NCBI RefSeq assembly: GCF_025369935.1
Contig: NZ_CP104467.1
Coordinates: 1,255,001 to 1,319,000 of the forward strand
Direction of reading: 5' to 3'
Source: Paenibacillus andongensis
Lineage (GTDB): Bacteria > Bacillota > Bacilli > Paenibacillales > NBRC-103111
Length of the DNA: 64,000 bases
The translations under genes and the position numbers were made by a program. Below, piece after piece: positions 9,960 to 56,329 of the stretch. The notes beneath the pieces are model-generated. The model was given only the letters and a program-made list of their open reading frames with translations. It searched no databases and was not told where the DNA came from. Position 1 is the stretch's first letter, and every line of letters begins with the position of its first letter.

Positions 9960-9971
9960 CATCCTTCACAA

Positions 9972-9985: not shown

Positions 9986-10020
9986 TATAAATATTCACGA
10001 AAATTAGGAGATGAATATGT

Positions 10021-13827: not shown

Positions 13828-13839
13828 TCAGCAGCATGT

Positions 13840-13881
13840 CCCTTACATTTGCCACAGCAGGCAGTGGTAAGGGCTTTTTTT
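13840..13881 (+). terminator. Rho-independent terminator after the large fructanase gene
   Basis: CCCTTAC (13840-13846) pairs with GTAAGGG (13867-13873), and CTTTTTTT follows. Confidence 0.85.
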
Positions 13882-13994
13882 ACAAAAAAATTAAAGCCAA
13901 GGAACAGAGTATATTGAAATCATTTGCACCCATCCTTTGTTAAAATACGAATAAGTTTATCAATATCATTGTTCAAAGGAATGGGGAGATTAGG

Positions 13995-18130: not shown

Positions 18131-18214
18131 ATGATCTTCGAAACGCCTCGTTTCGCAAATATTCATGCATATGCCGATGATTTCATAGTCGGCGATCATG
18201 CGAACCGTTGAGGG

Positions 18215-18391
18215 GGAACGAGGAGGCGCTATTTGGACGAAAAACCCCGAAATCAGGATAAAGAGGAACGTAGAAGCGCTATTTCGCGGTTTTTGCCTTT
18301 GGATCGTGCTTTTTTGATCAAATAGCGCTCTCTCGTTCCTCTTATTCGATTTCATAAGCAGAATTTCCGAAATAGCGGCTCTACGTTCCTC
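18215..18391. repeat. Four copies of a ~22-bp unit arranged as two interleaved inverted repeats
   Basis: The unit reads about GAGGAACGnAGnnGCGCTATTT. Copies on the + strand lie at 18215-18235 and 18263-18286, and inverted copies at 18319-18342 and 18369-18391. The first pairs with the third and the second with the fourth, so alternative stems are possible. No ORF is present. The remaining part of the gap (18392-18670) shows nothing recognisable apart from A/T-rich sequence before the kinase gene. Confidence 0.8.
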
Positions 18392-18670
18392 TAACGAAAG
18401 ATCGGGTGACGTTCCCTGGGGCAGCTTATTTTCACGAAATCAATATGTTCTAATAGTGGTAATCAATAAATTAGAATGACATCAGCATTCAGCAGCTCTA
18501 ACATTAAGCTATGAAAGCTTTTTAAATAAGCACCATTAATTCATGAGCGCAAGAGATACTTGCGTTTATTCCATTTTGCCTGAAGATTATGAAATAAAAA
18601 TGCTATTCCTTAAAAGATAAAGTAACATGAAGGTATGCGCTATCTTCGTTCAGAAAGGAACTCTACTGCG

Positions 18671-21536: not shown

Positions 21537-21634
21537 AATACAATAACGAATGCTAATAACATCAAATGATTCATTACCCCCTTCTCTCTATACTGAAATT
21601 GTAGTTACTAATCATCTTTAGGGGGAAATGAAAA

Positions 21635-22954
21635 ATGAAGAAAGCGCTTCACTTATTACTAAGTGTTACCTTATTGGGCGCAATGGTCGGTTGCGGCACG
21701 AACACCAACTCCAGTAATGGCGGAAAAGAGGCAACGCCAGCTCCGGCGGATTCGAAACCGGCAGCATCTACTCTTGCTCCAGCTAAGAAAGTAGAATTGA
21801 AAGTATTTATGGGCTTTCCACGGTTTAAGGATCAATTTGATAAATACTTTGAACAATTTAAGGCAAAGGAAAAAGCTGAAAAAAATATTGATGTCACCAT
21901 CAATCTTGAAATGCCAAATCCGGATCAAGCCAAGCAAATTTTGCAGACTCGCCTTTCTTCTAATGATGCGCCGGATTTGTTCACCCTGCACGCTGTAGCA
22001 GACGTTCCCAGTTATTACAAAGCCGGTTACTTGAGTGACCTATCCAATCAGCCATTTGCGGCTGGCTTGTTCGATAACGTTAAGAAGACAGTAACCTTTG
22101 ATGGCAAAATAGTAGCATTACCGCTTGAAAGCTTGGAATGGGGTTATTTGTACAATAAGAAAGTGTTTAATGACATAGGTCTGAAAGCTCCTCAAACGAT
22201 AGATGAAATGAAAGCGGTTGTAGAAAAGCTGAAAGCGAACAAAGTGACACCCTTCGAGTTGTCTTTCCAAGAGGCATGGATTCCGCAGCTGATCATGGCG
22301 CTATCGCTCGGCGGGATTGTGACTTCGGAGCATCCGGATTGGATTCAGAAGATGAACAAGGGTGAGGCCTCCTACAAAGACGTACAGGACGTATTTAATA
22401 TTATTGATATTGTAATGCAAAATGGGACAGATAAGCCATTCGAAGTAGGCAGCGCTCAAGGCTCTACTGATTTCGCTAACGGAAAAGCGGCGATGTGGGT
22501 TCAAGGTCCATGGCAAGCAGAAGCAATTCAAAAGGTTAATCCGAAAATTGAATTTGGCGTGGCACCGCTCCCGGTGAGTAATAACCCCAAGGGTACGATG
22601 ATCAACCTATCAACGTCCACATCTCTAGCGGTATCTCCAACAAGCAAGAACAAAGAGGTTGCCATGGATCTTCTAAACTACATCCTTGATCCGAAGGATT
22701 CGTCAGCCTTGTTCCAAGAGTTGAAGTTCAATCCCGTATCTAAGGTGCACACGTATAAATCGTTCCCTTGGATCGATGAAGCGATGACCTACGTTTCTCA
22801 AGGGAAGGCTTATCAGGACCTGTCTCTTCCCAATGGCATCACGGATGAACAAGCGAAGCTGCTGCAAAGTTACTACGCAAAGCAAGTAACGAAAGACGAG
22901 ATCATCAAATCGCTGGATAAGAAATGGGCAGACGCGATTAAGGCTCAGCAATAG
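21635..22954 (+). CDS. Sugar-binding lipoprotein of an ABC importer (family 1)
   Basis: This 439-residue extracellular solute-binding protein has a type II signal peptide with lipobox LGAMVGC (lipid-anchored C20), a Ser/Pro/Ala-rich linker to about residue 50 and the MalE-like fold with the signature FANGKAAMWVQGPW. TTTAGGGGGAAATG precedes the start. It is the first gene of a four-gene transport/hydrolase operon placed after a two-component system. The ligand is probably a beta-glucan or mannan oligosaccharide judging from the GH5 gene downstream, which is inference. Confidence 0.93.
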   Translation: MKKALHLLLSVTLLGAMVGCGTNTNSSNGGKEATPAPADSKPAASTLAPAKKVELKVFMGFPRFKDQFDKYFEQFKAKEKAEKNIDVTINLEMPNPDQAKQILQTRLSSNDAPDLFTLHAVADVPSYYKAGYLSDLSNQPFAAGLFDNVKKTVTFDGKIVALPLESLEWGYLYNKKVFNDIGLKAPQTIDEMKAVVEKLKANKVTPFELSFQEAWIPQLIMALSLGGIVTSEHPDWIQKMNKGEASYKDVQDVFNIIDIVMQNGTDKPFEVGSAQGSTDFANGKAAMWVQGPWQAEAIQKVNPKIEFGVAPLPVSNNPKGTMINLSTSTSLAVSPTSKNKEVAMDLLNYILDPKDSSALFQELKFNPVSKVHTYKSFPWIDEAMTYVSQGKAYQDLSLPNGITDEQAKLLQSYYAKQVTKDEIIKSLDKKWADAIKAQQ

Positions 22955-22992
22955 CATGGCTATATATGGTGACCGGGAGTGAGAATAGGCTA

Positions 22993-23874
22993 ATGACAAC
23001 GAAACGAAAAAAGACAGTCATCCTATTAGCCTTCGTGTTTCCCGCTCTATTATTCTACGCTGTATTCGTACTCGCCCCCGCATTCGGGGGCGCATGGTAC
23101 AGCCTTACGAATTGGAACGGACTGAATCGCACGTATCGGATGGTGGGATTGGCGAATTACATCGAGGCTTTGACGGCGGACCCGTTCTTCCTAAAGTCGG
23201 TAGGCTTCACCCTTAAATATGTCGTGTTCATGGTTGTGCTTCAGAATGTGATCGCTCTGCTTCTGGCGGTTCTTGTGGAATCCAGACGGCTCAGCAAGGT
23301 ATGGTTCCGAACGATTTTATTCATGCCTAATATGATCAGCTTGATCATAGGCGGATTTATGTGGTTATTTATTTTCACCAAAGTACTTCCGTATATAGCC
23401 GAACATACGGTATTCACCTTTTTGGACAAATCTTGGATCGGTGATCCGGCGTATTCGTTCTTCGCCATCGTCATCGTGTCCCTGTGGGGCGGTGTCGGTT
23501 ACCTGATGGTGATCTATATCGCCTCCTTACAGGGAGTACCCCAACATCTGAAAGAAGCGGCTGCGATGGATGGTGCGAATGCTTTTAAAACGTTTCGTTA
23601 TGTGACGCTTCCGATGATTTATCCGGCTTTGACGATTGGTATCTTTCTTACTCTTAACGGCTCATTTAAAGCATTCGATGCCGTCTACTCGTTAACCGGC
23701 GGTGGTCCGGGCAGATCCACGCAGGTCATCGCGCTGAACATTTTCGAAGAAGCTTTTAAATCAAGTAATCGATATGGATATGCAAATGCCAAGGCGATGA
23801 TCTTGTTTCTAGTCGTGTTTTTGATCACCTTGATTCAGCTATGGTTGATGAAAAGAAGAGAGGTGGAATCATGA
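22993..23874 (+). CDS. Sugar ABC transporter permease, MalF type
   Basis: This CUT1 inner-membrane subunit has 293 residues from the ATG at 22993, which is preceded by GGGAGTGAG. An earlier ATG at 22966 has no ribosome site. Six transmembrane segments are predicted and the EAA loop reads KEAAAMDGANAFKTFRYVTLP. It follows the binding protein by 38 bases and overlaps the next permease by four bases. Confidence 0.92.
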   Translation: MTTKRKKTVILLAFVFPALLFYAVFVLAPAFGGAWYSLTNWNGLNRTYRMVGLANYIEALTADPFFLKSVGFTLKYVVFMVVLQNVIALLLAVLVESRRLSKVWFRTILFMPNMISLIIGGFMWLFIFTKVLPYIAEHTVFTFLDKSWIGDPAYSFFAIVIVSLWGGVGYLMVIYIASLQGVPQHLKEAAAMDGANAFKTFRYVTLPMIYPALTIGIFLTLNGSFKAFDAVYSLTGGGPGRSTQVIALNIFEEAFKSSNRYGYANAKAMILFLVVFLITLIQLWLMKRREVES

Positions 23875-24695
23875 AGCGAATCGGTTCCTTTATGATTCTG
23901 CTCATCCTCATTGCTGCTGCCATCTTTACGTTGTTTCCGATCTACATGGGACTGCTGAACTCCTTTAAGACGGAAGGTGCGATGATGAATAACATTTTGT
24001 CGCTGCCTACCCATTTGGAAGTAGGAAATTATATAGGCGCATTCCATAAGACTAATTTTGTTAGAAGCTTAGGAAATACGATATATATCGCGTCGGTTGG
24101 CTTGTTAGGCATAATTATTTGCGCTTCGATGGCAGGCTTTAAACTATCTAGGACACCGGGGAAGTTAAGCGCATTTATTTTTCTGCTGTTCGTCATGTCC
24201 ACGTTGATTCCATTTCACTCTATTATGATAACGCTGACTAAAATATCTAAAGCGCTATCTGTGCAAGGCTCTACGACGGGTCTAGGATTGATATATATAG
24301 GCACGGGTGTCGCATTTGCGATCTTTTTGTACCATGGTTTTGTGAAATCGATCCCCCGCGATCTGGATGAAGCGGCTGTCATCGATGGATGTGGTGAGTT
24401 CCGATTATTTTTTATCGTCATTTTTCCGTTATTACTGCCGATTACGGCTACGATTGCGATTTTAAACCTGTTATGGATATGGAACGACTTTCTTCTGCCG
24501 TTACTGATGTTAACCAACTATAAGACGTATACCTTGCTATTATCCACCAACATGCTGTTCGGTCAATACGGGAATAATGACTGGTCGGCCATCTTGTCTT
24601 CATTGGTTTTGGCCATGCTGCCGGTCGTTCTCTTCTATTTATTACTGCAAAAATACATTATGAAGGGTATTGCAGACGGTGCGATAAAAGGATAG
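23871..24695 (+). CDS. Sugar ABC transporter permease, MalG type
   Basis: The partner permease has 274 residues and starts in an ATGA overlap with the stop of the MalF-type gene, with GAGGTGG upstream. The EAA loop is LDEAAVIDGCGEFRLFFIVIFP and the C-terminus ends GIADGAIKG. No ATPase gene is in the operon, so a shared MsmX-like ATPase elsewhere is expected. Confidence 0.92.
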   Translation: MKRIGSFMILLILIAAAIFTLFPIYMGLLNSFKTEGAMMNNILSLPTHLEVGNYIGAFHKTNFVRSLGNTIYIASVGLLGIIICASMAGFKLSRTPGKLSAFIFLLFVMSTLIPFHSIMITLTKISKALSVQGSTTGLGLIYIGTGVAFAIFLYHGFVKSIPRDLDEAAVIDGCGEFRLFFIVIFPLLLPITATIAILNLLWIWNDFLLPLLMLTNYKTYTLLLSTNMLFGQYGNNDWSAILSSLVLAMLPVVLFYLLLQKYIMKGIADGAIKG

Positions 24696-24707
24696 GAGTG
24701 AAAATGA

Positions 24708-26312
24708 TTGAGCTCAATTCGTGAGAATGAAGTTGTTGGCTTTCTTAGAGCTGACGGGAATAGGCTAGTCAACGGAGAAGGTCGCGAGGTGCTGCTGAGA
24801 GGCGTAGGCTTTGGAAGTTGGCTGCTCCCAGAGGGTTATATGTGGATGTTTCCGGAGCAAGGGGATCGTCCGCGGCGTATTGAAAAGATGATTCAAGAGC
24901 TGATCGGCGAACGGCAGGCTGAAAGATTTTGGGACATTTACTATGACATTCATACGACGGAAGCAGATATTCAGCAGATTGCTGCTGAAGGCTTCAATTC
25001 GGTTAGGGTGCCAATAAACGCAAGATTTTTGATTGAAGATGGCGAGCCCCTTCGGGTGAAGGAACATAGACTACAGCTTATCGATCGGCTAATCGGATGG
25101 TGTCGTAAACACAGTCTTTATGTAATTCTAGATCTGCACGGGGCACCTGGGGGCCAGACGGGTACGAATATCGACGACTCTGAACGCGACTTGCCGGAGC
25201 TGTTTACAGAAGAACATAATAAACGTCTTACGGTTCAGTTATGGCGTTTTCTCGCAGAGCATTACAAGGATGAATGGATTGTTGCTGGCTATGATCTGCT
25301 CAATGAGCCGCTGCCCAACTGGTTCTCTGCTTATAACGATGAGGTCATGCCACTTTATCGGGACATCGTCAAGGCCATCCGAGAAGTGGATGATCGCCAC
25401 ATAATTATTCTAGAAGGTGCCCATTGGGCAACGGATTGGTCAATTTTCACGGAGAAAATCGACGATAATCTGATGCTGCAGTTTCATAAATATTGGAACA
25501 ATCCAGATACGGAGAGCATTAGAGTCTATTTAGATAAGTGTGAAGAGTGGAACGTGCCCATTTATATGGGTGAAGGCGGCGAAAATAATAAAGCATGGTA
25601 CGCGGGTGCTTTCCGCCTTTTTGAAGATCATAATATCTCATGGAATTTCTGGACTTGGAAAAAGATGGGTAAGAATAATTCGCCATGCAGCGTTAAGGTG
25701 CCTCGCGATTGGCAGATGCTGGTCGAGTATTTAGAAGGCGGTGCGAAGCCAGATGAGATAACCGCACAACGGATCTTAGAGGAGTATCTGACTAATTTAG
25801 CTTTTGAGGAATGTGTGTATTATCGCGATGTTGTTGACGCCTTGTTATGCAGACCTCCTGTTCGCATACCTGCTATTTTCTACGGGTATCGGGGAGAAGG
25901 GGTCAGTTATGGCATCCAGCAGCCGTCGAACCAGAATGTTGGCTTTCGCATCCACGACCGTACGGACATTCGATTTGTCGCAAGTGCCAGGGAGACAGCA
26001 AACTTCGAACATGGCAAAGGAGAGGTCTGGCAAGAGGATGAGCGCCTAGAAGTACACTTGGCTGAAAGCGATTGGCTAGCCTACGAAATTTATGTGCCAA
26101 GAGTGAGTGATTACTCGGTTTACGAGATCAACGTTCACCTTAACGAGCTTGATGAAAACGGAAGTCTGGCAATCTCAATAGATGACCAAAACAAAAATTG
26201 TAGAGAACCGTTTACGCTTGAGTCAGGGACACATCGTATTGTAGTTCAAGCTAAAGGTGCTCCCGTTCGGCTCGAATGGTTAGAAATCATTCCGACCAGC
26301 ATGATGACTTAG
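24708..26312 (+). CDS. GH5 family beta-glycanase with C-terminal beta-sandwich, TTG start
   Basis: This 534-residue enzyme has no signal peptide, so it should cleave oligosaccharides brought in by the preceding importer. The GH5 barrel (about 10-380) shows acid/base E200 in LLNEPL and nucleophile E289 in YMGEGGEN. Residues from about 400 form a beta-rich domain like CBM6/35-type modules. The only start consistent with the frame and with AGGAG at 24694-24698 is TTG 24708. The ATG at 24704 runs into a stop after six codons. Beta-1,3-glucan, mannan or xyloglucan-type fragments are possible substrates, and the subfamily cannot be settled here. Confidence 0.88.
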   Translation: MSSIRENEVVGFLRADGNRLVNGEGREVLLRGVGFGSWLLPEGYMWMFPEQGDRPRRIEKMIQELIGERQAERFWDIYYDIHTTEADIQQIAAEGFNSVRVPINARFLIEDGEPLRVKEHRLQLIDRLIGWCRKHSLYVILDLHGAPGGQTGTNIDDSERDLPELFTEEHNKRLTVQLWRFLAEHYKDEWIVAGYDLLNEPLPNWFSAYNDEVMPLYRDIVKAIREVDDRHIIILEGAHWATDWSIFTEKIDDNLMLQFHKYWNNPDTESIRVYLDKCEEWNVPIYMGEGGENNKAWYAGAFRLFEDHNISWNFWTWKKMGKNNSPCSVKVPRDWQMLVEYLEGGAKPDEITAQRILEEYLTNLAFEECVYYRDVVDALLCRPPVRIPAIFYGYRGEGVSYGIQQPSNQNVGFRIHDRTDIRFVASARETANFEHGKGEVWQEDERLEVHLAESDWLAYEIYVPRVSDYSVYEINVHLNELDENGSLAISIDDQNKNCREPFTLESGTHRIVVQAKGAPVRLEWLEIIPTSMMT

Positions 26313-38223: not shown

Positions 38224-41200
38224 ATGATTGCTTTGGCATTTTCGAAAAGGTGGAAATTGCACGGTTTCATGATGCTCTTCTTTCTGATTAGTCTGCTGCT
38301 ATTGTCCGCATCTTCCGTCAAAGCCGCTCAGCAAGAACCTTACAACTGGCAAAATGTACGCATTGGCGGCGGCGGATTTGTAACCGGGATCGCGATTCAT
38401 CCGACGGAGCCGAATCTTGTCTATATTCGTACCGACGTCGGCGGCGCCTTACGCTGGGACGAAGTGAATCACAAGTGGATTCCATTATTGAATGCAATTC
38501 CAAGAGAAAAATACAATGAGTACGGCATCGACAGCATCGCACTTGATCCTTCGAATCCGAATGTGGTCTACATCGCAGCTGGCAAGTACAACTATGTAGG
38601 CGCTCCTGCGGATATTCTGAAATCAACGGATCGTGGAGCCAATTGGACTTCAACCGGGTTTGCACCTAGGCATTATGGTAACGGGCCAGGACGAGATTTA
38701 GGTGAACGGCTTATGGTAGACCCGAACAACAGTCAAATCATTTACATGGGAACGCGTTATGACGGGCTGTGGAAAAGCACATCCGGTGCCAGCTCAGGCT
38801 CATGGGAGCAGGTTACTAATTTCCCGACCCCCGGTGCCGATCCAACCGGACTCAATTTTGTTTTATTTGATAAGAGTACGGGTTCTCCGGGCATTGCGAC
38901 TCAAACCATTTATGTCGGGGTCAAAGGCACTGGCATTTACCAGAGCGTAAATGGCGGGACGACATGGACGCTGATGAATGGAAGTCCGCTTACACCTCGT
39001 CGGGCTGTTCTGGCGGATGGCGGCACTCTGTATGTCACTTATGAATCTGGCGTCACGAAATTTGCAAACGGTGTATGGACCGACATTACGCCTCCGTCGA
39101 CGGGGAGATACAACGGCATTACCGTAGATCCTACGAACCCGAACATCGTGATGACGGCCATTGAGGACGGCTCGAACACACCGGCTCCGATCTACCGGTC
39201 GGTCAATGGAGGAACGAACTGGACGCAGGTTACCTTCGTCAAACATCCGAATGTTCCGTGGTGGACGAGTAATTGGTTTGCTGCCAATACCTCCACCTTG
39301 ACCATCGACCCCCATTTTCCGAATCGTGTCTGGTTAACCGACTTCTACGGCACATGGCGTACGGATGATATAACGGCAAGTCCGTCCCACTGGTATACGT
39401 ACGAGGAGGGCCACGAAGAAGTGGTGACGTTCGCTTTGCGCAGCACGCCGATCGGTGCACCGCTGCTGAGCGGGCACGCGGATGTCGACGGTCTGCGTCA
39501 TACTTCGCTGATGGCGTTTCCAAGTGGTAAATTCGGCAGTCCGTCTCTAGGCGATACGGTGTCGATCGACTTTCAAGAGAGTAATCCTAACTTCATCGCC
39601 CGGGTAGGTTCCACGCGTTATGCCGGTACAGGCGGCGGTGGTTACAGCACCAACAACGGGGCTTCCTGGACGGCGTTTCCCAATCCGCCAGGCGTGGCGG
39701 GCCGCATCGCCGTATCCGCTGGAAGCGAGACGCTGGTCTGGGTCCCGCAGAGCGGAAGTCCGATCTATTCAACCGATCGGGGACAAACGTGGAACCCGAG
39801 CACAGGCGCACCATCCGGAACCGTACACGATTTCTGGGTCTGGTACCAGCCGCTGGCGTCTGACCGCGTTAACAATAATACGTTCTATCTGTTAGAACGA
39901 AATACTTGGAAATTATTCCGCAGTACGGACGGTGGAGCGTCTTGGACGGTTGCGTCGACGATGCCGACAATACCAGCGAAAACTCCCGCGTATTTCAGCG
40001 TCAAGGCAGCGCCGGGTAAGGCGGGCGAAGTATGGGTCAGCCTGGATGGGGGAGGCCTCTGGCGTTCCAGCAACGCTGGCGATTCATGGACGCGGCTGCC
40101 GAATGTTCAGCAAGCGACATTGTTTGCATTTGGTAAAAATAAGCTTGGTTCTCCAGATCCCACAGTTTTCGTATACGGCAAGGTGGATAATACTGTAGGT
40201 ATTTTCCGCTCCGATGATTTCGGCACCTCCTGGGTGAAGATTGACGTAGCCGATCCGGCAATTGGCGCTGAAGCCAACACGATGGAAGGCGACCGTCAGA
40301 CTTGGGGACGTGTCTATATCGGAACGAATGGAACCGGTGTTTTCTACGGTGACACTTTGATGAGTGAAGGGACCGATACAGAGCCGCCGACAGCGCCTTC
40401 GAACCTGACATCTCCATCGAAAACATCCACGAGCGTTAACTTATCTTGGACGGCTTCAACCGATAACACCGGTGTAGCCGGGTACAACATTTACAGCGGA
40501 GGTGTCTATGTCGGTGCCACAACAATGCTCTCGAGTACAACATATACGGTAAACGGCTTAGCGCCTAGCACCGCCTATTCGTTTACGGTGAAAGCCAAAG
40601 ATGGAGCGGGAAATCTGTCGGCTCCGAGCAATGCAGTGAGTGTGACGACAGCGTCTCCGCCGGCACCGCCGACGAATCTGACAACGACAGCGGCGACGCT
40701 CACGAGCCTCAGCCTGAGTTGGAGTCCGCCATCCAATCCCTCCGGCGTAGTCGGATATCGGATTTACGTCGGATCCAAGCAGGTCGCTGCTACCTCGGGC
40801 ACGACGTATACGCTCACGGGACTACTGCCCAACCAAACATATTCGGTTACCGTTCGTTCCGCGGACGGTGCAGGCAGCACGTCAACAGCTAGTAATACAG
40901 TGGCTGCAACGACGGCGACAGGTCCGGGCACACTCGCATTCAGCGACGATTTTCAGGATGGGGTAGCGGATGGTTGGACGCCTGCGAACGGTACGTGGTC
41001 TGTCGTAACATCAGGCGGGTCCAAGGTTTACAAGCAAGCTTCCTGGCTGGATAAGAATGCGTTCAGTACCGTCGATACCAGCACATATACCAACTACAGC
41101 GTGGAAACGAACATCAAACTTACCCAAAATGATATCGATCTGGCAGCCGGTATTACGGCCCGCTATCAGGATCCGAACAATTTTTATTATTTCCGAATCA

Positions 41201-43155
41201 AAGCAGGCAAGCTGCAGATTGGCAAATCGGTGAACAACGTCATCACGATCCTGACTGCGAAAAATTATACGATGACGACGAATGAAGTGTACACGTTCAC
41301 TGCGGTTTTAAACAACAGCACACTCGATTTCTATGTGAATGGGTTTAAGGAATTAACGGTTACGGATACGAGTCTTACTTCGGGGAAAATCGGCCTATAT
41401 GCCTATAAAACGAGCGTTGAGTTTGACAATGTGAAAGTCGTTCATGATCGCGATTTCGCGCCGCCGACGGCTCCTGGCAATTTACGCTTAGTGTCCAAAA
41501 GCGAGACCACGGCAGATTTGGCTTGGGATGCATCCTTGGACAATATCGGTGCAACCCAGTATGAGGTATATCAAGGTTCAACGTTGATAGGAACCGTCAC
41601 GTCCAACACGTATTCCGCGACCAACCTTGCGGCGAATACCGCTTACACGTTCAGCGTAAAGGCAAGGGATGCAGCAGGCAACGTGTCCGCAGCGAGCGGT
41701 CTGCTCAACGTCACGACAGACCCGTATCTGTTTCAAGCGAAGAAAACGGTCGCCCCCATTACCGTTAACGGATCCTTGGACGAACAAGTATGGTCCTCGT
41801 TCAAGCAGATCAAGAAAGCAATTATCGGAACTCCGAATAATACGGCTGAATTCAGCTCGCTCTGGGACAATACTTATTCGTATGTAGGCGTCAAAGTCAT
41901 CGACGGGAATCTGTATAATACCTCCGTGCAACCTTATTATGATGACTCCATCGAAATCTATATCGACAGCAACAACAATAAGGGCACTACGTATGACAGC
42001 TATGACCAGCAGTATGTCAAGGGATGGAATGATAGTACGCTATGGCTGAAGAGAGTGATGCCAAGCGGTGTGCTGCATGGCTGGGCGCCGATTCCAGGCG
42101 GATACAGCGTGGAGCTGGCGATTCCGTGGAGTACTCTCGGCCTTACGCCGACCGCCGGTATGACCATCGGCTTCGACGTGGTGAACAATGACACAGACAC
42201 CGGTGCCGGCCGGCAAAGCCAGCTGATGTGGGCCGGAACGAGCGACAACTGGACGAATACGTCCGCCTTCGGGAGTCTGCAGCTTTCCTCCACCTCTATT
42301 GGAGATACGCAGCCGCCGACAGCTCCGGCGAATTTGACATCACCCTCGCACACCGACCGGACGGCGGCATTGTCCTGGACGGCTTCGATGGACAATGTGG
42401 GCGTTACCGGATACGACATTTATAACGGTGGAAATCTGGTTGCAACGGTAACTTCGACGACCTATACGGTCACCGGGTTAACGCCGGGAGCTAGTTACCT
42501 CTTTACTGTAAAAGCCAAAGATGCGGAAAACAATGTGTCGGCGGCGAGCAACTCGGTCAGCGTCACGATGGATGCGTCCTACACGTTGCTCCCTGTTACC
42601 AAAATGAGTACCGCCATCCAAGTCGATGGCTCGCTGAACGAATCGGCTTGGGCCATAACGAAACAAGTGAGCAAAAACGTGGTCGGAACCTCTAACAACT
42701 CAGCACAGTTCGGGGTACTATGGGACGATACTTATTTGTATGTCGGGGTTAACGTCCTCGACGCCAATCTGTACAATAATTCGCCGGAGCCCTATTCCGA
42801 CGATTCCGTCGAGATTTATATTGACGGCAATCATAACCAGGGCGCGACATATGACAGCTATGACCGGCAGTTTATCAAAGGATGGAACGACAGTACGCTA
42901 TTCGAGGCGGCAAGCCGCACGGGCGGCGTGCAGCATGCATGGGCTACGACGACGGGTGGATACAGTTTTGAGATGGCGATTCCATGGGGTTCGCTTGGCA
43001 TTACGCCATCCGCCGGGATGATGATTGGCTTCGACGTAGCGAACAATGACGAGGACGATGGCAACGGTCGTCAGAGCCAGACGGTATGGGCCGGCGAGTC
43101 CACGAACTGGACGAATACATCCGCATTCGGGGAATTGAAGCTGATAGCGCCATAA
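38224..43155 (+). CDS. Secreted GH74 xyloglucanase with four FN3, one CBM66-like and two CBM9-like modules
   Basis: This 1643-residue protein has a signal peptide (1-35, cleavage likely at VKA). The GH74 double propeller (about 40-720) begins NVRIGGGGFVTGIAIHP. Its catalytic aspartates are probably D71 (RTDVGG) and D420 (HADVDG), and it holds several BNR/Asp-box turns such as STDRGANWTS. FN3 domains lie at about 721-809, 812-898, 1080-1166 and 1363-1449. A beta-sandwich like CBM66/LamG covers 902-1075. CBM9-like modules lie at 1168-1356 and 1452-1643 with paired DDSIEIYID/DDSVEIYID motifs. GGGAGGG lies seven bases before ATG. It should cut xyloglucan outside the cell for the Lpl-type importer upstream. 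The FN3/CBM9 pairs look duplicated. Confidence 0.92.
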   Translation: MIALAFSKRWKLHGFMMLFFLISLLLLSASSVKAAQQEPYNWQNVRIGGGGFVTGIAIHPTEPNLVYIRTDVGGALRWDEVNHKWIPLLNAIPREKYNEYGIDSIALDPSNPNVVYIAAGKYNYVGAPADILKSTDRGANWTSTGFAPRHYGNGPGRDLGERLMVDPNNSQIIYMGTRYDGLWKSTSGASSGSWEQVTNFPTPGADPTGLNFVLFDKSTGSPGIATQTIYVGVKGTGIYQSVNGGTTWTLMNGSPLTPRRAVLADGGTLYVTYESGVTKFANGVWTDITPPSTGRYNGITVDPTNPNIVMTAIEDGSNTPAPIYRSVNGGTNWTQVTFVKHPNVPWWTSNWFAANTSTLTIDPHFPNRVWLTDFYGTWRTDDITASPSHWYTYEEGHEEVVTFALRSTPIGAPLLSGHADVDGLRHTSLMAFPSGKFGSPSLGDTVSIDFQESNPNFIARVGSTRYAGTGGGGYSTNNGASWTAFPNPPGVAGRIAVSAGSETLVWVPQSGSPIYSTDRGQTWNPSTGAPSGTVHDFWVWYQPLASDRVNNNTFYLLERNTWKLFRSTDGGASWTVASTMPTIPAKTPAYFSVKAAPGKAGEVWVSLDGGGLWRSSNAGDSWTRLPNVQQATLFAFGKNKLGSPDPTVFVYGKVDNTVGIFRSDDFGTSWVKIDVADPAIGAEANTMEGDRQTWGRVYIGTNGTGVFYGDTLMSEGTDTEPPTAPSNLTSPSKTSTSVNLSWTASTDNTGVAGYNIYSGGVYVGATTMLSSTTYTVNGLAPSTAYSFTVKAKDGAGNLSAPSNAVSVTTASPPAPPTNLTTTAATLTSLSLSWSPPSNPSGVVGYRIYVGSKQVAATSGTTYTLTGLLPNQTYSVTVRSADGAGSTSTASNTVAATTATGPGTLAFSDDFQDGVADGWTPANGTWSVVTSGGSKVYKQASWLDKNAFSTVDTSTYTNYSVETNIKLTQNDIDLAAGITARYQDPNNFYYFRIKAGKLQIGKSVNNVITILTAKNYTMTTNEVYTFTAVLNNSTLDFYVNGFKELTVTDTSLTSGKIGLYAYKTSVEFDNVKVVHDRDFAPPTAPGNLRLVSKSETTADLAWDASLDNIGATQYEVYQGSTLIGTVTSNTYSATNLAANTAYTFSVKARDAAGNVSAASGLLNVTTDPYLFQAKKTVAPITVNGSLDEQVWSSFKQIKKAIIGTPNNTAEFSSLWDNTYSYVGVKVIDGNLYNTSVQPYYDDSIEIYIDSNNNKGTTYDSYDQQYVKGWNDSTLWLKRVMPSGVLHGWAPIPGGYSVELAIPWSTLGLTPTAGMTIGFDVVNNDTDTGAGRQSQLMWAGTSDNWTNTSAFGSLQLSSTSIGDTQPPTAPANLTSPSHTDRTAALSWTASMDNVGVTGYDIYNGGNLVATVTSTTYTVTGLTPGASYLFTVKAKDAENNVSAASNSVSVTMDASYTLLPVTKMSTAIQVDGSLNESAWAITKQVSKNVVGTSNNSAQFGVLWDDTYLYVGVNVLDANLYNNSPEPYSDDSVEIYIDGNHNQGATYDSYDRQFIKGWNDSTLFEAASRTGGVQHAWATTTGGYSFEMAIPWGSLGITPSAGMMIGFDVANNDEDDGNGRQSQTVWAGESTNWTNTSAFGELKLIAP

Positions 43156-47919: not shown

Positions 47920-47954
47920 GTAAACGTTTACGTAAACGTTTGCGTAAACGTTAC
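47920..47954 (+). promoter_or_regulatory. Three tandem 12-bp LacI-type operator units
   Basis: GTAAACGTTTAC (47920-47931), GTAAACGTTTGC (47932-47943) and GTAAACGTTAC (47944-47954) follow head to tail without gaps. Each has the central CG and flanking A/T of LacI/GalR/CcpA-family operators. Placed at about +10 to +45 of the predicted promoter, they should block transcription when occupied. No LacI-family gene is in the window. Confidence 0.65.
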
Positions 47955-48096: not shown

Positions 48097-48112
48097 TAGT
48101 AAGCGCTTACGT
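48097..48112 (+). promoter_or_regulatory. cre-like palindrome before the double-GH32 gene
   Basis: GTAAGCGCTTAC (48099-48110) is a perfect 12-bp palindrome matching the core of the CcpA cre consensus. A weaker relative, TGTAAGCGTATTCT, lies at 48141-48154. A second -35/-10-like pair (TTGTTT at 48125, TATTCT at 48149) would place a transcription start close to the gene. Confidence 0.55.
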
Positions 48113-48181: not shown

Positions 48182-51100
48182 ATGAGGAATAAAAGGACTT
48201 TTCGCGGTAATATGAAAAAATTCCTAGCCATTTTATTTGCCTCACTTTTAGTGGTTCCTAATTTACCGCCAACCGTAGTAAAAGCAGCTACGACCATTAC
48301 CAATCCTAGCTTTGAGTCGGGGGATTTGACCGGTTGGACAGCAACCGGAACTACATTTACCAACACAAGCGTAGCGAACGATACAAATTACTGGAACCTG
48401 CAAAAATTCAATCAACATAACTTCTGGCACATTTGGGATGGCAAAGGCGACAATTCCAAAGTTGGCGTTTTGCAATCCGAGACGTTTACTCTCGGCGGCA
48501 ACGGCGCGGTCGATTTTCTGATCGGCGGCAACAACGACATCAATAACCTGTATGTCGCGCTCGTTCGGGATTCCGACGGCGTCGAGCTGATGAAAGCGAC
48601 AGGGACCAATACAGATACTTATGCGCGGGTCAATTGGAACGCGGCGGCGTACGTCAACACAGTCGTCAAAATCAAAGTCGTTGATAATTCCACGACGGGC
48701 CATATCAACATTGACGATTTCCACGTTCCGCAAACGGCAACGCTGCACGGACACGTATCGCCGGCGCTGTACAATCCGGACTTCGAATTGACGGATCTGG
48801 TGCCTTTTGAAATCAAGGGCTGGACGAACGTCAGCGGCGACGCGTTCGCGCCAAGCAACCTGGTGTATGAGAATAATTACAGCCAGGGCGGCGCATTCGG
48901 CAAAGCCGGCACCTATCACTTATTTGGATTCAAAGCGGCTGGCGATAGTGCGACCGGTACGCTGCAGTCCTCCACCTTTACACTTAGCGGCAATGGCGGC
49001 ATCGACTTCCTGATCAGCGGCGGCCGCGACATCACCAATCTGTACGTATCGCTTGTACGCGTATCGGACGGAGCCGTACTCTTTAAAGAAACCGGCAGTA
49101 ATTCCGAAGCTTACCGGCGTGTGTTCTGGGACGCTTCGGCTTACCTCAGCCAAGATGTGTACATCAAAATCGTTGACAGTTCGACGGGTGGTTTTGGCCA
49201 CATCAATGCCGACGATTTCAATGTGCTCAATTCCATATACGCAGGCGGCCTGGTCGGCCAGTGGCATTTGAATGAAACGACTGGCGCAACAACATCCGAG
49301 ACGGTATCGGGTAATGCTGATGCGGTGGCATACCACTTGAATACTGGCGTATACCAATCATCGCAAAGTCCTCTTTGGAAAAGCGATGGAATCAGCAGCG
49401 GAGCGCTATTGTTCGACGGATATTCCACATGGGTCGATCATCCGGTGAATAAGTTCCCAACACCTACGAAAGCGATTACAGTCGAAGCGTGGGTTGCTCC
49501 GCGCAACTTCGAATCGGGTGCAGAAGGACGTTTGTCCGCGATCGTCAACCAGCATAACCGGGAGGCGAAAGAGGGCTTTATTCTCGGTAACTCTCGGGGA
49601 GGCACATTTGGCTTCCAATTTGGAACAGGCAGTGACTGGCGTGAAATCATGTCGGATCAGCAGTTGCCGCTCAACGAGTGGTCGTATGTGGTCGCTTCGT
49701 ACAGCAGTGACACAGGTCTTGCGGCTCTGTACTTGAACGGGAAACAAGTAGCGACAGCGAATTTCCCTGTAGGTCAGCAGATTTTGGCTAGCGATACTGA
49801 TCTATTGATTGCCAAAAACAATCAAGCTTTTTGGCTGTACGGATTTAACTTGAATTCGTTCAGCGGTTTGATCGACGAGGTGAAAATTCGCAACCAAGTC
49901 ACGCCGGCGGCCGATATTCAAAGCGCTTACAATTCGTATAAGAGCGCTCTTGGCGGGAACCTGCCGACAGCGAACAATCGTATCGACCGCAGCATTTTGG
50001 CGAACGATTCGCAGCGTCCGCAATTCCACGCTGAACCGCCTTCTGCATGGCAGAACGAGCCGGGCGGCGCACTCTACTTCAATGGCCAATACCATGTATT
50101 CTACCAAAGCAATCCACGTGGACCTTACTGGGATAACATCCGTTGGGGCCATCTGGTCAGCAGCGACATGGTTCACTGGCGAGACGCGAAAGACGCGGTA
50201 ATTCCTGAGAAGAATGCGGTCGATATCGACGGCGCATGGGCAGGCGGTTCCGTTCTGGACGGCAACAATATTCCGGTTATTTTCTATACAGCCGGTGATA
50301 ATCACCAATCGCCAGGACAGCGAATCAATATCGCTCGCAGCAACTATGGCGTTGACGCAGATAACGACCTGAACAACTGGAACAAAAGTCCGAAGGTCGT
50401 CGTTAACCAGCAATCAGGTCAAGGAATGTCGGGTGAGTTCCGCGACCCATTCGTTTTCAAGGACGGCAGTACGTGGTTTATGCTGGTAACTTCGGGCAAG
50501 GCTGACAACACGGGCGGCACTGCACTTGTTTACTCGACAACCGATCCGACGCTGGAATCCGGTTGGACGTTTAGAGGAGACCTGTACGACGGTGACTTTG
50601 CCACCTATCCGCAAACCGGGCGCGTCTGGGAACTGCCGAACTTACGTCCGCTCGGCACGAGCGGCAAGTACATTTTCATGATCAACCCGGCCAAAATGGC
50701 AAGCTCGGAGCTCCAATCCCGCTATACGTACTACTGGATCGGTACATGGAACCCGACGACGGCGCGGTTTACGCCGGACAATGCGACGCCGCAGCTGCTT
50801 GACGTCGGTGAACATTTCACGGGACCTGCAGCCGGCCTGACAGCTGACGGCAGAACGGTCATCTATAGCATCGCGCAAGGCCGCAGAACGGCAACGATGG
50901 ACTCCGATGCCGGATATGCGCACAACTTCGGAATTCCGCTGAACGTGTACCTGCGCGCAGACGGCAAGCTCGGTGAGGAGCCGATCAGTGAACTGACATC
51001 TCTTCGCGGCACACAGCTCGTTAACATCACGACGAATACAACTTTCGCGGCAGCCAATACGGCGTTGTCCAGCATCAGTTCCGACATGTATGAAATCGTG

Positions 51101-54100
51101 GCGGATATCGATCCGGGCACTGCGAATGAAGTAGGATTCAGTCTGCGCCGCTCGCCGGGGGCAGAAGAGTACACCAATATGTACTATAAGGTGAGCTCGA
51201 AGGAATTCTGGGTCGACCGGACGAAAAGCAGTCTGAACCCGGATGTCGAGAAATGGTATCAGGGCGGCGTCACTGACATTGGTACGTCTACAGTTCAGTT
51301 GCACATTTATGTGGACCGTTCAATGATCGAAGGATACTTGAATGGGTTGAAATCGCTCACAACACGTGCTTATCCGACACGCAGCGACGCAAAAGGCATT
51401 CAGTTATACGCCAACGCAAACTCGAGCACGGTAACTGTTAAATCTCTGCAAGTGTGGGCGATGAATTCCGCTTACACAGCGGTTAACCCGACAGTTGTTA
51501 CCTTACCTGCATCGAAAACGATTATTAATGGAGACAGCCAATTGCTGCTGGCTACAGTATCTCCTTCGAACGCAACAAACAAAGATGTCATTTGGACATC
51601 CAGCAACCCGGCTGTGGCATCGGTTATCAACGGAAATGTAACTGCGAATTCCGTAGGTACCGCAACCATTACGGCAAAAACAAGGGTCGGCAACTTTACT
51701 GCAACCAGCGCGATAACGGTTACCGCCGAACCGGCGCATGGAAATTTAATTAACCCGGACTTCGACAATAATTTGTCGGGCTGGACGATTCTGAGCGGCG
51801 ACGCGTTCAGCAATCTGGACGTGACAACAGCCAAAAGCTGGAGTTGGGGCGGTCCGTTCAACCAGAGCGGAAACAGCCATTTCTGGGGTGCGGCTAATAC
51901 GACCGACTCGCAAATCGGTTCGATGCGCTCACAGAAATTTATTCTCGGCGGAAATGGCCAAATCAACTTCCTGATCGGCGGCGGCAACAACTATTATGAT
52001 CTGTATGTGTCACTGGTTCGCGCTTCGGACGGCAAAGAATTGTTCAAAGCCACCGGCGGCGACCGCGAATCGTACAGCCGAGTCAATTGGGATGCGGCCG
52101 ATTACATCGGCACACAGTGTTACATCAAAGTGGTCGACAACGCGACTGGCGCATGGGGCCATATCAATATCGACGATTTCCATGTACCGACGCAGGCGCC
52201 GACAACCGTCAACATCACTAATCCGGACTTTGAGACCGGCAACTTGACGGGCTGGACCGTTGTCAGCGGCACCGAGTTCGTCAACGCCGACGTAACTTCG
52301 GATACCGGCTGGGGCTATGGTGGACCGTTCAATCAAAACGGAACGTACCACATGTGGGGCTTTAAAGGTGCAAGTTCCGATACACCGGTCGGTGTCATGA
52401 AATCAACTACGTTCACGTTGGACGGAACTGGATGGATCGACTTCCTGATCGGCGGCGGCAACGACATCAACAACGAGTACGTCGCACTCGTCAGAGCGTC
52501 TGATGGCGCGGAGCTGATTAAAGAAACAGGTAAGAACAACGAGCAATACAGACGGGTATTCTGGGATGCATCCCAGTATCTCGGTGAAGACGTGTACATC
52601 AAAGTCGTTGATAACTCGACCGGTGGTTGGGGCCATATCAACGCTGACGATTTCCACGTATACAATACAGCAAGCGATCTCGCAGGTACTCGCTATCAGC
52701 AGTACCGGGAATCATACCATTTTGCACCACAACAGAAATGGATGAATGACCCGAACGGACTTGTTTATTCCAACGGCGAGTACCATATGTTCTATCAAAA
52801 GAACTCTACAGGACTCACTTGGGGACCGATGTTCTGGGGCCATGCAGTCAGTACAGATCTTGTGAACTGGCAGGAGCTGCCGATCGCGCTTGAGCACGAC
52901 AGCAACGGATTCCCATGGTCGGGCAGCGTCGTAGTAGATACGAACAACACGAGCGGATTCCTAACCGGCACGACCCCGCCAATGGTCGCGATATTCACGC
53001 AGGAAAACAGCGGCACGCAGGTGCAAAGCGTCGCATACAGTAACGACAATGGACGTACTTGGACAAAATACGCAAGCAATCCGGTCATTACGATGCCGGC
53101 AGGGCTTACCGTGTTCCGCGATCCGAAAGTATTCTGGAACGCAGGAACGAGCAAATGGGTTATGGTTATATCTGCGGGCGACCGCGTGCGCTTCTACACG
53201 TCCACTAATTTGAAAAGCTGGACGTACGCGACCGAATTCGGCAGCGCGGATGGTTCGCATGGCGGCACGTGGGAATGTCCGGACTTGTACCAATTGCCGG
53301 TTGACGGCAACACGGGCAACATGAAATGGGTATTGTCGGTCAGCATCGCCAATGGTGCGCCAGCAGGCGGTTCAGGCATTCAATATTTCGTGGGACAATT
53401 TAATGGAACTACCTTTACGAATGACAATCCATCAACAACGGTACTATGGCGTGATAATGGTTCGGACGATTATGCTGCAACATCGTTCAATAACATTCCG
53501 TCAACGGATGGCCGCCGGATTGAAATCGCTTGGATGAACAACTGGAACTACGGCCAAGGCATCCCAGCTTCTGTTTCGAGAAGCGCAATGACGCTTCCTC
53601 GCGAAGCGAAGCTGGTAACTACAGGCTCTGGCGTGCGCTTGACGTCGAACCCTGTGACTGAGGTCAATGCTTTGCGCGGTACGACAAACAGCTGGACAAA
53701 CCAAACGATTACACAAACTGGAACGAACTTGTTGTCAAGCTTGTCGGGCGACAAGTGGGAGATCGTCGCAGAATTCCAAGACAATACAGCGACAGCAACG
53801 GAGTATGGCTTCAAAGTGCGTAAAGGCGCGAACGATTCAACTGTAGTCGGGTACAATAAATCGACCGGTAAAATGTTCGTTGACCGCACCGCATCGGGCG
53901 AGTCTAAATTCGACAGCACTTTTGCGGCTAGACACGAAGTTGCCATGACTGCCGACAGCAATAAAATCACGCTTCACATTTACGTAGATCGTGCATCTGT
54001 TGAGGCGTTCGGCAACAACGGCAAGGCAGTGATCACCGATCAAATCTTCCCGCTTCTTGCCGATACGGGACTGGAGCTTTACTCAACGGGGGGCAACGTC

Positions 54101-54601
54101 ACGTTGAACAGCTTGAATGTGTATAACCTGACACCAACGACGCAATTGACGAATAACGATTTTGAAACAGGTGACCTGACCGGTTGGACGGTTGTCAGCG
54201 GTACGGCTTTCAGCAATTCCAGCGTTACATCGCTGACAAACTGGGGCTGGGGCGGCATGTTCCAGCTGAACAATAAGTATCACTTGTACGGCTACCTGAA
54301 CGGCGGAGACGCTGCGGTTGGAACCATCAAATCGTCAACCTTCACACTGGGTGGCAGTGGTAAAATCGATTTCCTGGTCGGCGGGGGCAACAGTATAAGT
54401 AATCTGTATGTCGCCTTGGTCCGTGCTTCGGACGGAGTCGAACTGATGAAATCGACAGGAACGAACAGTGAAACGTACTCGAAAGTGATCTGGGACGCTT
54501 CAGTCTACTTGAATACCCCATGTTACATCAAGATCGTAGATAATAACACCGGCGGTTGGGGTCATATCAACCTGGACGATATTAACGTTCCAGTGAAGTA
54601 G
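48182..54601 (+). CDS. Giant secreted two-catalytic-domain GH32 fructanase (endo-type + exo-type) with five CBM38-like modules
   Basis: The 2139-residue protein has a signal peptide to about 35 and CBM38-like modules at about 38-183 and 196-344. A LamG-like domain covers 352-575. GH32-A follows (about 605-1095) with E626 in WQNEPGG in place of Asp, R754-D755 (FRDPF) and E817 (VWELPNL). A Big2-like domain lies at 1100-1185, modules at 1187-1338 and 1343-1494, GH32-B at about 1505-1985 with D1523 (WMNDPNG), R1646-D1647 (FRDPK) and E1698 (WECPD), and a last module at 1986-2139. CBM38 is the inulin-binding module of cycloinulo-oligosaccharide fructanotransferase. Glu as nucleophile is known from endo-inulinases. 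One chain may thus cut inulin internally (or cyclise it) and trim the ends. ATG 48182 is chosen after GTGGGAG; TTG 48179 is also possible. Confidence 0.9.
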   Translation: MRNKRTFRGNMKKFLAILFASLLVVPNLPPTVVKAATTITNPSFESGDLTGWTATGTTFTNTSVANDTNYWNLQKFNQHNFWHIWDGKGDNSKVGVLQSETFTLGGNGAVDFLIGGNNDINNLYVALVRDSDGVELMKATGTNTDTYARVNWNAAAYVNTVVKIKVVDNSTTGHINIDDFHVPQTATLHGHVSPALYNPDFELTDLVPFEIKGWTNVSGDAFAPSNLVYENNYSQGGAFGKAGTYHLFGFKAAGDSATGTLQSSTFTLSGNGGIDFLISGGRDITNLYVSLVRVSDGAVLFKETGSNSEAYRRVFWDASAYLSQDVYIKIVDSSTGGFGHINADDFNVLNSIYAGGLVGQWHLNETTGATTSETVSGNADAVAYHLNTGVYQSSQSPLWKSDGISSGALLFDGYSTWVDHPVNKFPTPTKAITVEAWVAPRNFESGAEGRLSAIVNQHNREAKEGFILGNSRGGTFGFQFGTGSDWREIMSDQQLPLNEWSYVVASYSSDTGLAALYLNGKQVATANFPVGQQILASDTDLLIAKNNQAFWLYGFNLNSFSGLIDEVKIRNQVTPAADIQSAYNSYKSALGGNLPTANNRIDRSILANDSQRPQFHAEPPSAWQNEPGGALYFNGQYHVFYQSNPRGPYWDNIRWGHLVSSDMVHWRDAKDAVIPEKNAVDIDGAWAGGSVLDGNNIPVIFYTAGDNHQSPGQRINIARSNYGVDADNDLNNWNKSPKVVVNQQSGQGMSGEFRDPFVFKDGSTWFMLVTSGKADNTGGTALVYSTTDPTLESGWTFRGDLYDGDFATYPQTGRVWELPNLRPLGTSGKYIFMINPAKMASSELQSRYTYYWIGTWNPTTARFTPDNATPQLLDVGEHFTGPAAGLTADGRTVIYSIAQGRRTATMDSDAGYAHNFGIPLNVYLRADGKLGEEPISELTSLRGTQLVNITTNTTFAAANTALSSISSDMYEIVADIDPGTANEVGFSLRRSPGAEEYTNMYYKVSSKEFWVDRTKSSLNPDVEKWYQGGVTDIGTSTVQLHIYVDRSMIEGYLNGLKSLTTRAYPTRSDAKGIQLYANANSSTVTVKSLQVWAMNSAYTAVNPTVVTLPASKTIINGDSQLLLATVSPSNATNKDVIWTSSNPAVASVINGNVTANSVGTATITAKTRVGNFTATSAITVTAEPAHGNLINPDFDNNLSGWTILSGDAFSNLDVTTAKSWSWGGPFNQSGNSHFWGAANTTDSQIGSMRSQKFILGGNGQINFLIGGGNNYYDLYVSLVRASDGKELFKATGGDRESYSRVNWDAADYIGTQCYIKVVDNATGAWGHINIDDFHVPTQAPTTVNITNPDFETGNLTGWTVVSGTEFVNADVTSDTGWGYGGPFNQNGTYHMWGFKGASSDTPVGVMKSTTFTLDGTGWIDFLIGGGNDINNEYVALVRASDGAELIKETGKNNEQYRRVFWDASQYLGEDVYIKVVDNSTGGWGHINADDFHVYNTASDLAGTRYQQYRESYHFAPQQKWMNDPNGLVYSNGEYHMFYQKNSTGLTWGPMFWGHAVSTDLVNWQELPIALEHDSNGFPWSGSVVVDTNNTSGFLTGTTPPMVAIFTQENSGTQVQSVAYSNDNGRTWTKYASNPVITMPAGLTVFRDPKVFWNAGTSKWVMVISAGDRVRFYTSTNLKSWTYATEFGSADGSHGGTWECPDLYQLPVDGNTGNMKWVLSVSIANGAPAGGSGIQYFVGQFNGTTFTNDNPSTTVLWRDNGSDDYAATSFNNIPSTDGRRIEIAWMNNWNYGQGIPASVSRSAMTLPREAKLVTTGSGVRLTSNPVTEVNALRGTTNSWTNQTITQTGTNLLSSLSGDKWEIVAEFQDNTATATEYGFKVRKGANDSTVVGYNKSTGKMFVDRTASGESKFDSTFAARHEVAMTADSNKITLHIYVDRASVEAFGNNGKAVITDQIFPLLADTGLELYSTGGNVTLNSLNVYNLTPTTQLTNNDFETGDLTGWTVVSGTAFSNSSVTSLTNWGWGGMFQLNNKYHLYGYLNGGDAAVGTIKSSTFTLGGSGKIDFLVGGGNSISNLYVALVRASDGVELMKSTGTNSETYSKVIWDASVYLNTPCYIKIVDNNTGGWGHINLDDINVPVK

Positions 54602-56084: not shown

Positions 56085-56329
56085 AACTGGAGAAATCGAA
56101 TTATCGTTACTGGAGTAAGAGGCGTTTACTTAAACGAAAATGGTAAGTTTGCAATATAAACTACTGATAGTGAAGTAAGATTTTGTACTTTGTTTGGAAA
56201 AAACACGACAGACTTAACAGAGCAATTTTTAATGACCAACAAGGACTACTAACGTGGGCAGTTGGAACTAGATGCTTTAATTTTGATGGACAGGAATTGT
56301 GGAATACAGAAATACATTTTTTGAAATAG
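56085..56329 (+). pseudogene. Degraded hypothetical gene with internal stops and a frameshift
   Basis: One frame reads IIVTGVRGVYLNENGKFAI, hits TAA at 56157-56159 and continues TTDSEVRFCTLFGKN to about 56250. The protein-like reading then passes to another frame as LLTWAVGTRCFNFDGQELWN and ends at TAG 56327-56329. No intact start or ribosome site is seen. The family is unknown. The rest of the gap 55943-56663 shows nothing recognisable. Confidence 0.4.

Follow-up and report, generated by a model that had tools for sequence, protein, structure and literature searches.

A Paenibacillus andongensis protein that joins a Glu-type and an Asp-type GH32 domain, a candidate enzyme for inulin use

A 64,000-nucleotide stretch of the Paenibacillus andongensis genome (contig NZ_CP104467.1, positions 1,255,001 to 1,319,000; hereafter the window) encodes a protein of 2139 residues with two GH32 domains of different catalytic type. 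We report here that the first domain (A) has Glu in place of the usual nucleophile Asp, that the second (B) retains Asp and resembles exo-inulinases, that this pairing recurs in bacteria, an archaeon and fungi, and that the gene shares an exact LacI-type operator sequence with a distant operon for an unfused pair of Glu- and Asp-type GH32 enzymes. The reading that we favor, and hold to be fairly probable, is a LacI-controlled system for inulin use, in which a secreted endo-acting (A) and exo-acting (B) enzyme with CBM38-like repeats feeds an importer and the cytosolic Glu/Asp pair.

Results

Layout of the tandem protein

The frame 48182-54601 (+) is open from ATG to stop, with an in-frame TTG at 48179 as alternative start. 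A likely signal peptide is followed by two CBM38-like repeats, a LamG domain, domain A, a Big_2 domain, two further repeats, domain B and a last repeat (Table 1). An initial annotation, made from the sequence alone, had described two complete GH32 domains in one frame together with five CBM38-like modules, a LamG-like and a Big2-like domain, and this layout is borne out. Pfam finds two stretches each of the N- and C-terminal GH32 families (PF00251 and PF08244; 1.2e-144 and 1.9e-70), profile hidden Markov models (HMMs) place A at 597-1095 and B at 1500-1983, near the limits proposed, and five repeats are recovered with 189-225 bits beside Pfam Laminin_G_3 and Big_2. The motifs WQNEPGG (residue 623) in A and WMNDPNG (1520) in B are present as described. 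A and B are only 32% identical, hence no recent duplication, and they belong to separate clades, so that simple duplication is ruled out, as had been suggested. The protein is probably secreted, judged from a signal peptide recognized by inspection. Pfam finds no S-layer domain in it, while some long relatives have PF00395 (P0043, P0049, P0124); it would thus probably be released and held by its substrate.

Table 1. Features of the tandem GH32 gene and its upstream region (window positions; residues in brackets)
Feature	Position	Strand	Basis
Two overlapping LacI-type operator palindromes, predicted	47923..47950	.	14-mer CGTTTACGTAAACG at 47925-47938
Second palindrome GTAAGCGCTTAC	48099..48110	.	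LacI/CcpA-like by eye
Tandem GH32 protein, coding sequence, 2139 residues	48182..54601	+	open frame
Likely Sec signal peptide (1-36)	48182..48289	+	inspection only: basic start, hydrophobic core LAILFASLLVVP, AxA-like end
CBM38-like repeat 1 (36-187)	48287..48742	+	HMM, 189 bits
CBM38-like repeat 2 (193-353)	48758..49240	+	HMM, 195 bits
LamG-like domain (412-580)	49415..49921	+	Pfam PF13385 (Laminin_G_3), 9.6e-22; included in structure model of residues 355-1100
GH32 domain A, Glu type (597-1095)	49970..51466	+	Pfam and HMM limits; structure model
E626, in GH32 nucleophile-Asp column and E43-of-INU2 column	50057..50059	+	alignment
D755 of RDP, transition-state stabilizer	50444..50446	+	alignment
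E817 of WELP, acid/base; next residue Leu, not Cys	50630..50632	+	alignment
Big_2 domain (1108-1175)	51503..51706	+	Pfam PF02368, 1.1e-11
CBM38-like repeat 3 (1186-1340)	51737..52201	+	HMM, 212 bits
CBM38-like repeat 4 (1342-1498)	52205..52675	+	HMM, 225 bits
GH32 domain B, Asp type, exo-inulinase-like (1500-1983)	52679..54130	+	Pfam and HMM limits, structure-relative search
D1523 of WMNDPNG, nucleophile	52748..52750	+	alignment
D1647 of RDP	53120..53122	+	alignment
E1698 of WECP, acid/base	53273..53275	+	alignment
CBM38-like repeat 5 (1986-2139), reaching C terminus	54137..54598	+	HMM, 214 bits

Domains A and B differ in catalytic type

The catalytic triad of domain A is complete (E626/D755/E817), with Glu aligned to the usual nucleophile Asp. 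In an alignment of 157 GH32 domains, drawn from P0001-P0119 and the three other GH32 proteins of the window, the stabilizer Asp and the acid/base Glu are conserved throughout, and the nucleophile is Glu in 112/112 domains that are A-like by BLAST similarity and Asp in 45/45 B-like ones. Fungal INU2-type domains are B-like by similarity, yet have Glu at the nucleophile. According to the available part of PMC13416181, endo-inulinase carries Glu43 in place of Asp, Thr100 instead of Ser and Val234 where a Cys otherwise follows the acid/base; the corresponding residues of domain A are Glu626, Ala687 and Leu818. By this alignment, Glu626 and Leu818 differ from the exo residues as endo-inulinase does, and Ala687 is a change peculiar to A; Ala687 is found in 34/34 window-type rows, and A lacks the Thr100 feature of INU2. 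The Cys after the acid/base is also lost in about a third of the Asp-type rows. Members of the window clade differ from CFTases (cycloinulo-oligosaccharide fructanotransferases) and INU2 near the -1 subsite, with Ala687 and in most cases Gly628. A further change concerns the Trp of WMNNW, which is Arg in A and equals W335 by our own mapping, made from a structure alignment and the chain numbering of the A. awamori exo-inulinase. This column holds Trp in 0/42 bacterial/archaeal and 0/4 fungal Glu rows, and in 41/53 Asp rows. Trp335, Trp38 and Trp65 make the exo pocket narrow, as described in an excerpt of PMC6560043, and the exo-inulinase variant KcINU1 W334L, the same Trp by our mapping, is inactive according to passages of PMC7545266. 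A structure model of residues 355-1100, covering LamG and A, has a mean predicted local distance difference test score (pLDDT) of 91.9 and matches GH32 structures; comparing the fold of modeled domain A with endo and exo enzymes was uninformative. Domain A is likely to cut inulin-type fructan inside the chain, an endo action suggested by its residues.

In domain B the triad is D1523/D1647/E1698, and both the Cys after the acid/base and the WMNNW Trp are kept. Its best solved relatives are the exo-inulinases 8i12 (8.9e-113) and 1y4w (6.2e-104), and B likely removes fructose from chain ends. An endo-acting or cyclizing domain beside an exo-acting one had been proposed initially. The difference in type holds, by sequence; for A both a hydrolyzing endo-inulinase and a CFTase are candidates, since A falls in a CFTase-containing clade and is no INU2 relative. 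Of the two substrates considered at that stage, inulin stands as likely and levan has found no specific support.

The CBM38-like repeats

A model built from the five repeats of the window protein alone matches the CFTases P0083 (48-196 bits, four stretches) and P0101 (55-195 bits, three stretches) and 53/57 tandems having a Glu domain; P0036, P0038, P0140 and P0107 are without repeats. In the portion of PMC10076258 at hand, the CFTase of P. macerans has a CBM38 (residues 32-389) that is built of two beta-sandwiches and binds inulin and levan. The five repeats are therefore likely five single sandwiches and, by analogy with the CFTase, probably bind inulin. Their structure model is poor (pLDDT 67.1), with a weak best match (8xmz, 1.5e-4). 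A gene written GH32;CBM38 is part of a Bacteroides uniformis locus in a gut metagenome (PMC9458734, excerpt).

The Glu/Asp pairing recurs

We collected 328 database proteins, 118 in a first set, 90 new ones in a second (from the best 120 of 449 matches) and 120 in a third (the best 120 of 629). Only candidates sharing most words were scored, so these sets are samples, and because A and B served as the search queries the tandem counts are no unbiased census. The first set holds 19 Glu-Asp and 15 Asp-Glu tandems, one whose first nucleophile is unread and whose second domain is Glu, 76 single Glu and 7 single Asp proteins. The second adds 16 Asp-Glu tandems and P0129 (split by the parser), 5 whose truncated first domain precedes a Glu domain, 5 Asp-Asp, 50 single Asp and 12 unread singles, as well as P0160, an interrupted Asp domain read as two and left out of the tandem count. 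The third, in which a length limit excludes tandems, has 118 single Glu and 2 unread proteins. In total there are at least 62 tandems: 51 Glu+Asp, 6 with a Glu domain behind a first domain of unread nucleophile, 5 Asp+Asp and no Glu+Glu. Dozens of Glu/Asp tandems thus came out of the search for two-GH32 proteins that the initial annotation had advised, and the architecture is not rare. Named sources of tandems include, among bacteria, Paenibacillus, Cohnella, Guptibacillus, Marinicrinis, Halalkalibacterium, Halobacillus and Neobacillus, the archaeon Natronococcus pandeyae (P0107), and, among fungi, Coniochaeta, Cadophora, Leptodontidium, Aspergillus, Talaromyces, Rutstroemia and Dichotomopilus. 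A search of a plasmid collection gave no record with one place covering 80% of the tandem protein.

The recurrence also bears on the idea of an assembly-caused fusion, raised as a caveat at the outset, and on that of a gene-model artefact, neither of which gained any evidence in its favor. The Glu-first/Asp-second order is present in 19/118 proteins of the first set, from Paenibacillus, Cohnella, Guptibacillus and others, and also in the related genome G039; because the same order recurs in other records, an assembly fusion is refuted and the chance of any artefact is practically nil. For the fungal tandems merged gene models are unlikely: in 13/13 fungal or fungal-type proteins inspected (8 from named fungi and 5 metagenomic), visual inspection and hydropathy show linkers that are rich in Ser/Thr and free of any stretch resembling a signal peptide.

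Most of the GH32 relatives seen here have unspecific database labels, for instance 'GH32 C-terminal domain-containing protein' and 'sucrose-6-phosphate hydrolase', and the sole NCBIfam match above cut-off is a sucrose-6-phosphate hydrolase subfamily for P0001. No tandem was seen to be named as a characterized enzyme except P0133, named after inu2. In the literature searched (titles, starts of abstracts and passages, with few subscription papers covered) we found no description of a natural protein with two GH32 domains or of a Glu/Asp tandem. CBM38, CFTase, INU2 and exo-inulinase are known; their Glu/Asp pairing on one chain appears undescribed there.

Interrupted GH32 folds were also seen. 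Many of P0145-P0191, of Bacillus/Priestia type, have other modules within the fold, 3keto-disac_hyd among their domains, and in fungal P0123-P0133 one or two CBM38-like repeats interrupt the exo domain.

Origin of the pairing

The careful tree has 86 rows, 13 of 99 having been left out as long or distant branches; those omitted include P0111, P0113, P0116, the Asp/Asp tandems P0134, P0137, P0165, P0177 and P0194, and the Asp domain of archaeal P0107, which consequently has no tree position. The family tree advised for each domain places A in a group of all bacterial/archaeal Glu domains (41 rows, 100/100) with the CFTases inside; B, which is exo-inulinase-like, lies in a different clade. Fungal INU2-type Glu domains fall together with fungal exo domains in another group (8 rows, 97/96). 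The hypothesis that all Glu-type domains form one clade is rejected (approximately unbiased test, p-AU 0.00066). The nucleophile residue hence changed at least twice, in the simplest view by Asp-to-Glu replacement on each occasion, and fusions to an Asp domain occur in both Glu groups.

A single ancestral fusion of all tandems is not supported by tree tests, whose p-values are optimistic because the groups were named after a quick tree had been seen. For the 26 bacterial/archaeal tandem rows, one clade of their Glu domains is rejected (p 9e-6), those of the core Glu-first and Asp-first groups are weakly rejected as one (p 0.022), and the Asp domain of P0140 is rejected from the main tandem group (p 0.0047); for the Asp domains of P0036/P0038 such a placement is not rejected (p 0.30). 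P0140 joins relatives of two genes that lie close together in the window's own genome (ownL008 98/99; ownL003 and ownL004 100/98). In P0022 and P0024 the domain order is reversed and the Glu domain is of the window's group; the Asp domain of P0022 lies outside the window's group (p 1.8e-93). As both orders occur and the fungal Glu domain is separately derived, the pairing arose more than once. P0012 (1347 residues) matches residues 13-1340 of the window protein with 74% identity; read in this alignment, the window protein is a CFTase-like cassette, as in P0012, plus an added block repeat-B-repeat. Unfused cassettes nest among the tandems (8 changes on 38 rows), so this block was lost or gained several times.

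A shared operator and a distant Glu/Asp operon

The 14-mer CGTTTACGTAAACG occurs at exactly two sites in the 7.64-Mb genome, its reversed control at none. The first base of site 1 lies 257 bases before the ATG of the tandem gene. Site 2, at 2.696 Mb, lies between lacI and the first permease of an operon 1.39 Mb from the tandem gene. A 16-base operator form with at most two mismatches has 4 window matches on both strands, against 0.02 expected. A one-mismatch copy, CGTTTACTTAAACG, is found at 56123-56136, about 1.5 kb past the tandem gene. The 2.70-Mb locus encodes, in this order, LacI (2.695 Mb), two permeases of an ATP-binding cassette (ABC) importer, a 587-residue protein, a Glu-type GH32 enzyme (747 residues; L039 9985-12228), PfkB, an Asp-type GH32 enzyme (490 residues) and Gfo/Idh; both GH32 enzymes are without a visible signal peptide (by eye). 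The 587-residue protein (L039 8198-9961), in the position of the importer's solute-binding protein, has no Pfam match at 0.001.

Neighbors were surveyed in the 16 genomes with close Glu-type matches, out of 104 searched and 49 with any match. The nearest Asp-type GH32 gene of a Glu-type gene is on the same strand in 26/26 cases, within 3 kb in 16/26 and within 6 kb in 21/26, 3/26 being fusions. For comparison, an Asp-type gene has another Asp-type gene on either strand within 3 kb in 13/92 cases and within 6 kb in 30/92, and a Glu-type gene has another Glu-type gene within 6 kb in 11/26. In G039 the tandem gene directly follows, on one strand, genes for permeases, a binding protein, an Asp GH32, a Glu GH32 and Gfo/Idh. 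The 16 genomes contain 9 exact CGTTTACGTAAACG sites, 7 at Glu/Asp loci (twice in the P. andongensis genome, G000, and in G032, G044, G046, G048 and G053) and 2 elsewhere (G063, G069). A site 4.41-4.45 kb before the Glu-type match is exact in G000, G032, G044, G046, G048 and G053 and has one mismatch in G047 and G054; seven of these eight genomes (not G032) have a further one-mismatch copy 1.08 kb upstream, in G000 at the start of lacI. The tandem of G044, in reverse order within a 2025-residue frame, has two pairs of overlapping one-mismatch/12-base sites 103-190 bases before the gene.

Other loci of the window

A second fructan locus (36-15113) comprises histidine kinase/response regulator genes, GH32 (3322-5172), two ABC permeases, PfkB, GH32 (8006-9514), GH32 (10021-13827) and Gfo/Idh. 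The last GH32 protein (1268 residues) has LamG, Big_2 and 3keto-disac_hyd, which we take to be CBM66-like. In the proteins of 3322-5172 and 10021-13827 Ser replaces the Asn before the nucleophile (NMSDPNG, KASDPNG). GH127 and GH5 genes lie with two-component system and ABC importer genes at 16157-26312, and 38224-43155, downstream of a solute-binding protein gene, encodes a 1643-residue protein with weak BNR/Asp-box matches, four fn3 and two CBM9 stretches. A tRNA search of the window found none.

Discussion

In the system that we propose, the protein would be secreted and held on inulin by its CBM38-like repeats. A would attack inulin internally, creating new chain ends close to B, which would release fructose from them. 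Oligosaccharides escaping B may be taken up by the ABC importer that the operon with the shared operator encodes; in the cytosol the unfused Glu- and Asp-type GH32 enzymes, with a PfkB-type sugar kinase, would finish them. The domains, residues, recurrence and shared operator are read directly from sequence; the functional steps are predictions built on them. The LacI-family repressor encoded beside the 2.70-Mb operon likely regulates both loci, to judge from the operator. Some results weigh against a shared regulon: one-mismatch operator totals are hardly above control (57 vs 48), copies of the 12-mer GTAAACGTTTAC are fewer than those of its control (13 vs 20), and exact sites are absent from G039. 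The argument for a shared regulon rests on the exact sites and their positions.

Unlikely, though well worth keeping in view as the main rival, is a cyclizing A that converts inulin to cyclic inulo-oligosaccharides as CFTases do, with B removing the linear remainder. A lies in the clade of the CFTases P0083 and P0101, LamG and CBM38-like repeats are common to both kinds of protein, and an exclusive clade of A and CFTases is not rejected (p-AU 0.087); the best trees, however, do not unite them, and CFTases have WMNEAHA where A has WQNEPGG. Extended to the cell interior, this becomes a rather unlikely scheme of making, importing and opening rings, in which the extracellular Glu domain produces the cyclic inulo-oligosaccharides, the importer and a cytosolic Glu-type opener use them and B clears the linear rest, all under one LacI-type operator. 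If true, such a system would privatize inulin, as pieces without a free non-reducing end could be used just by cells with importer and opener, and it would explain the cytosolic Glu-type enzyme beside an exo enzyme that should be sufficient alone for linear oligosaccharides.

We regard it as distinctly unlikely that A is endo-acting with levan or a branched fructan as main substrate. CFTases and INU2, the two Glu-type groups of known function, both act on inulin, which counts against it. In the same direction, the endo-levanases LevB1 and BT1760 are Asp-type, and another GH32 protein of the window (10021-13827) has the same set of Pfam domains as P0157 and P0186, which are named levanbiose-producing levanases. 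The residues near the -1 subsite that set the window clade apart from CFTases and INU2 would fit another substrate, as would the binding of levan by the CFTase CBM38 (PMC10076258, in part). Very unlikely, finally, is a catalytically dead or nearly dead A that serves as a binding or spacing part. Its active site is odd, with Glu for Asp, Ala for Ser and Arg for the Trp that, by our mapping, is the one whose replacement abolished activity in KcINU1 (PMC7545266, passages), but the three carboxylates are kept in 112/112 A-like rows, CFTases included, and INU2 with Glu43 is described as an active enzyme in the text available.

If A is endo-acting and B exo-acting, as in the inulin system favored here, the tandem is a candidate one-piece enzyme for the conversion of inulin to fructose and offers an easy way to test endo/exo synergy inside a single molecule. 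A single residue, the Glu or Asp nucleophile, splits these GH32 relatives into two sets that are tied as fusions or neighbors. The repeated assembly of the pairing, with a separately derived fungal Glu domain, suggests that having both activities next to each other has been selected for, and the operator sharing points to a likely regulon, none being described in the literature searched.

The nearest known systems share parts of this architecture. The CFTases P0083 (Niallia circulans) and P0101 (Paenibacillus polymyxa), with 45% and 44% identity to domain A, likewise have the Glu nucleophile, LamG before GH32 and CBM38-like repeats on both sides; they differ by a single GH32 domain, the motif WMNEAHA and no exo-type partner on the chain. 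INU2 (PDB 3rwk/3sc7) has the Glu nucleophile and has lost the Cys after the acid/base and W335, as A has, but INU2-type Glu domains group with fungal exo domains and not with A (97/96 support). The fungal tandems (P0123, P0125-P0129, P0132, P0133) also pair an INU2-type Glu domain with an Asp-type exo domain and CBM38-like repeats, but in Asp-Glu order, with a Ser/Thr linker and the repeats within the exo domain. Bacterial Asp-first/Glu-second tandems (for example P0058, P0120 and P0022) have both domain types, CBM38-like repeats and LamG before the Glu domain in common with the window protein, in opposite domain order. The exo-inulinases 8i12 (InuAMN8) and 1y4w (A. awamori), closest to B among solved structures, share its triad motifs and WMNNW, and have one GH32 unit per chain where the tandem protein has two.

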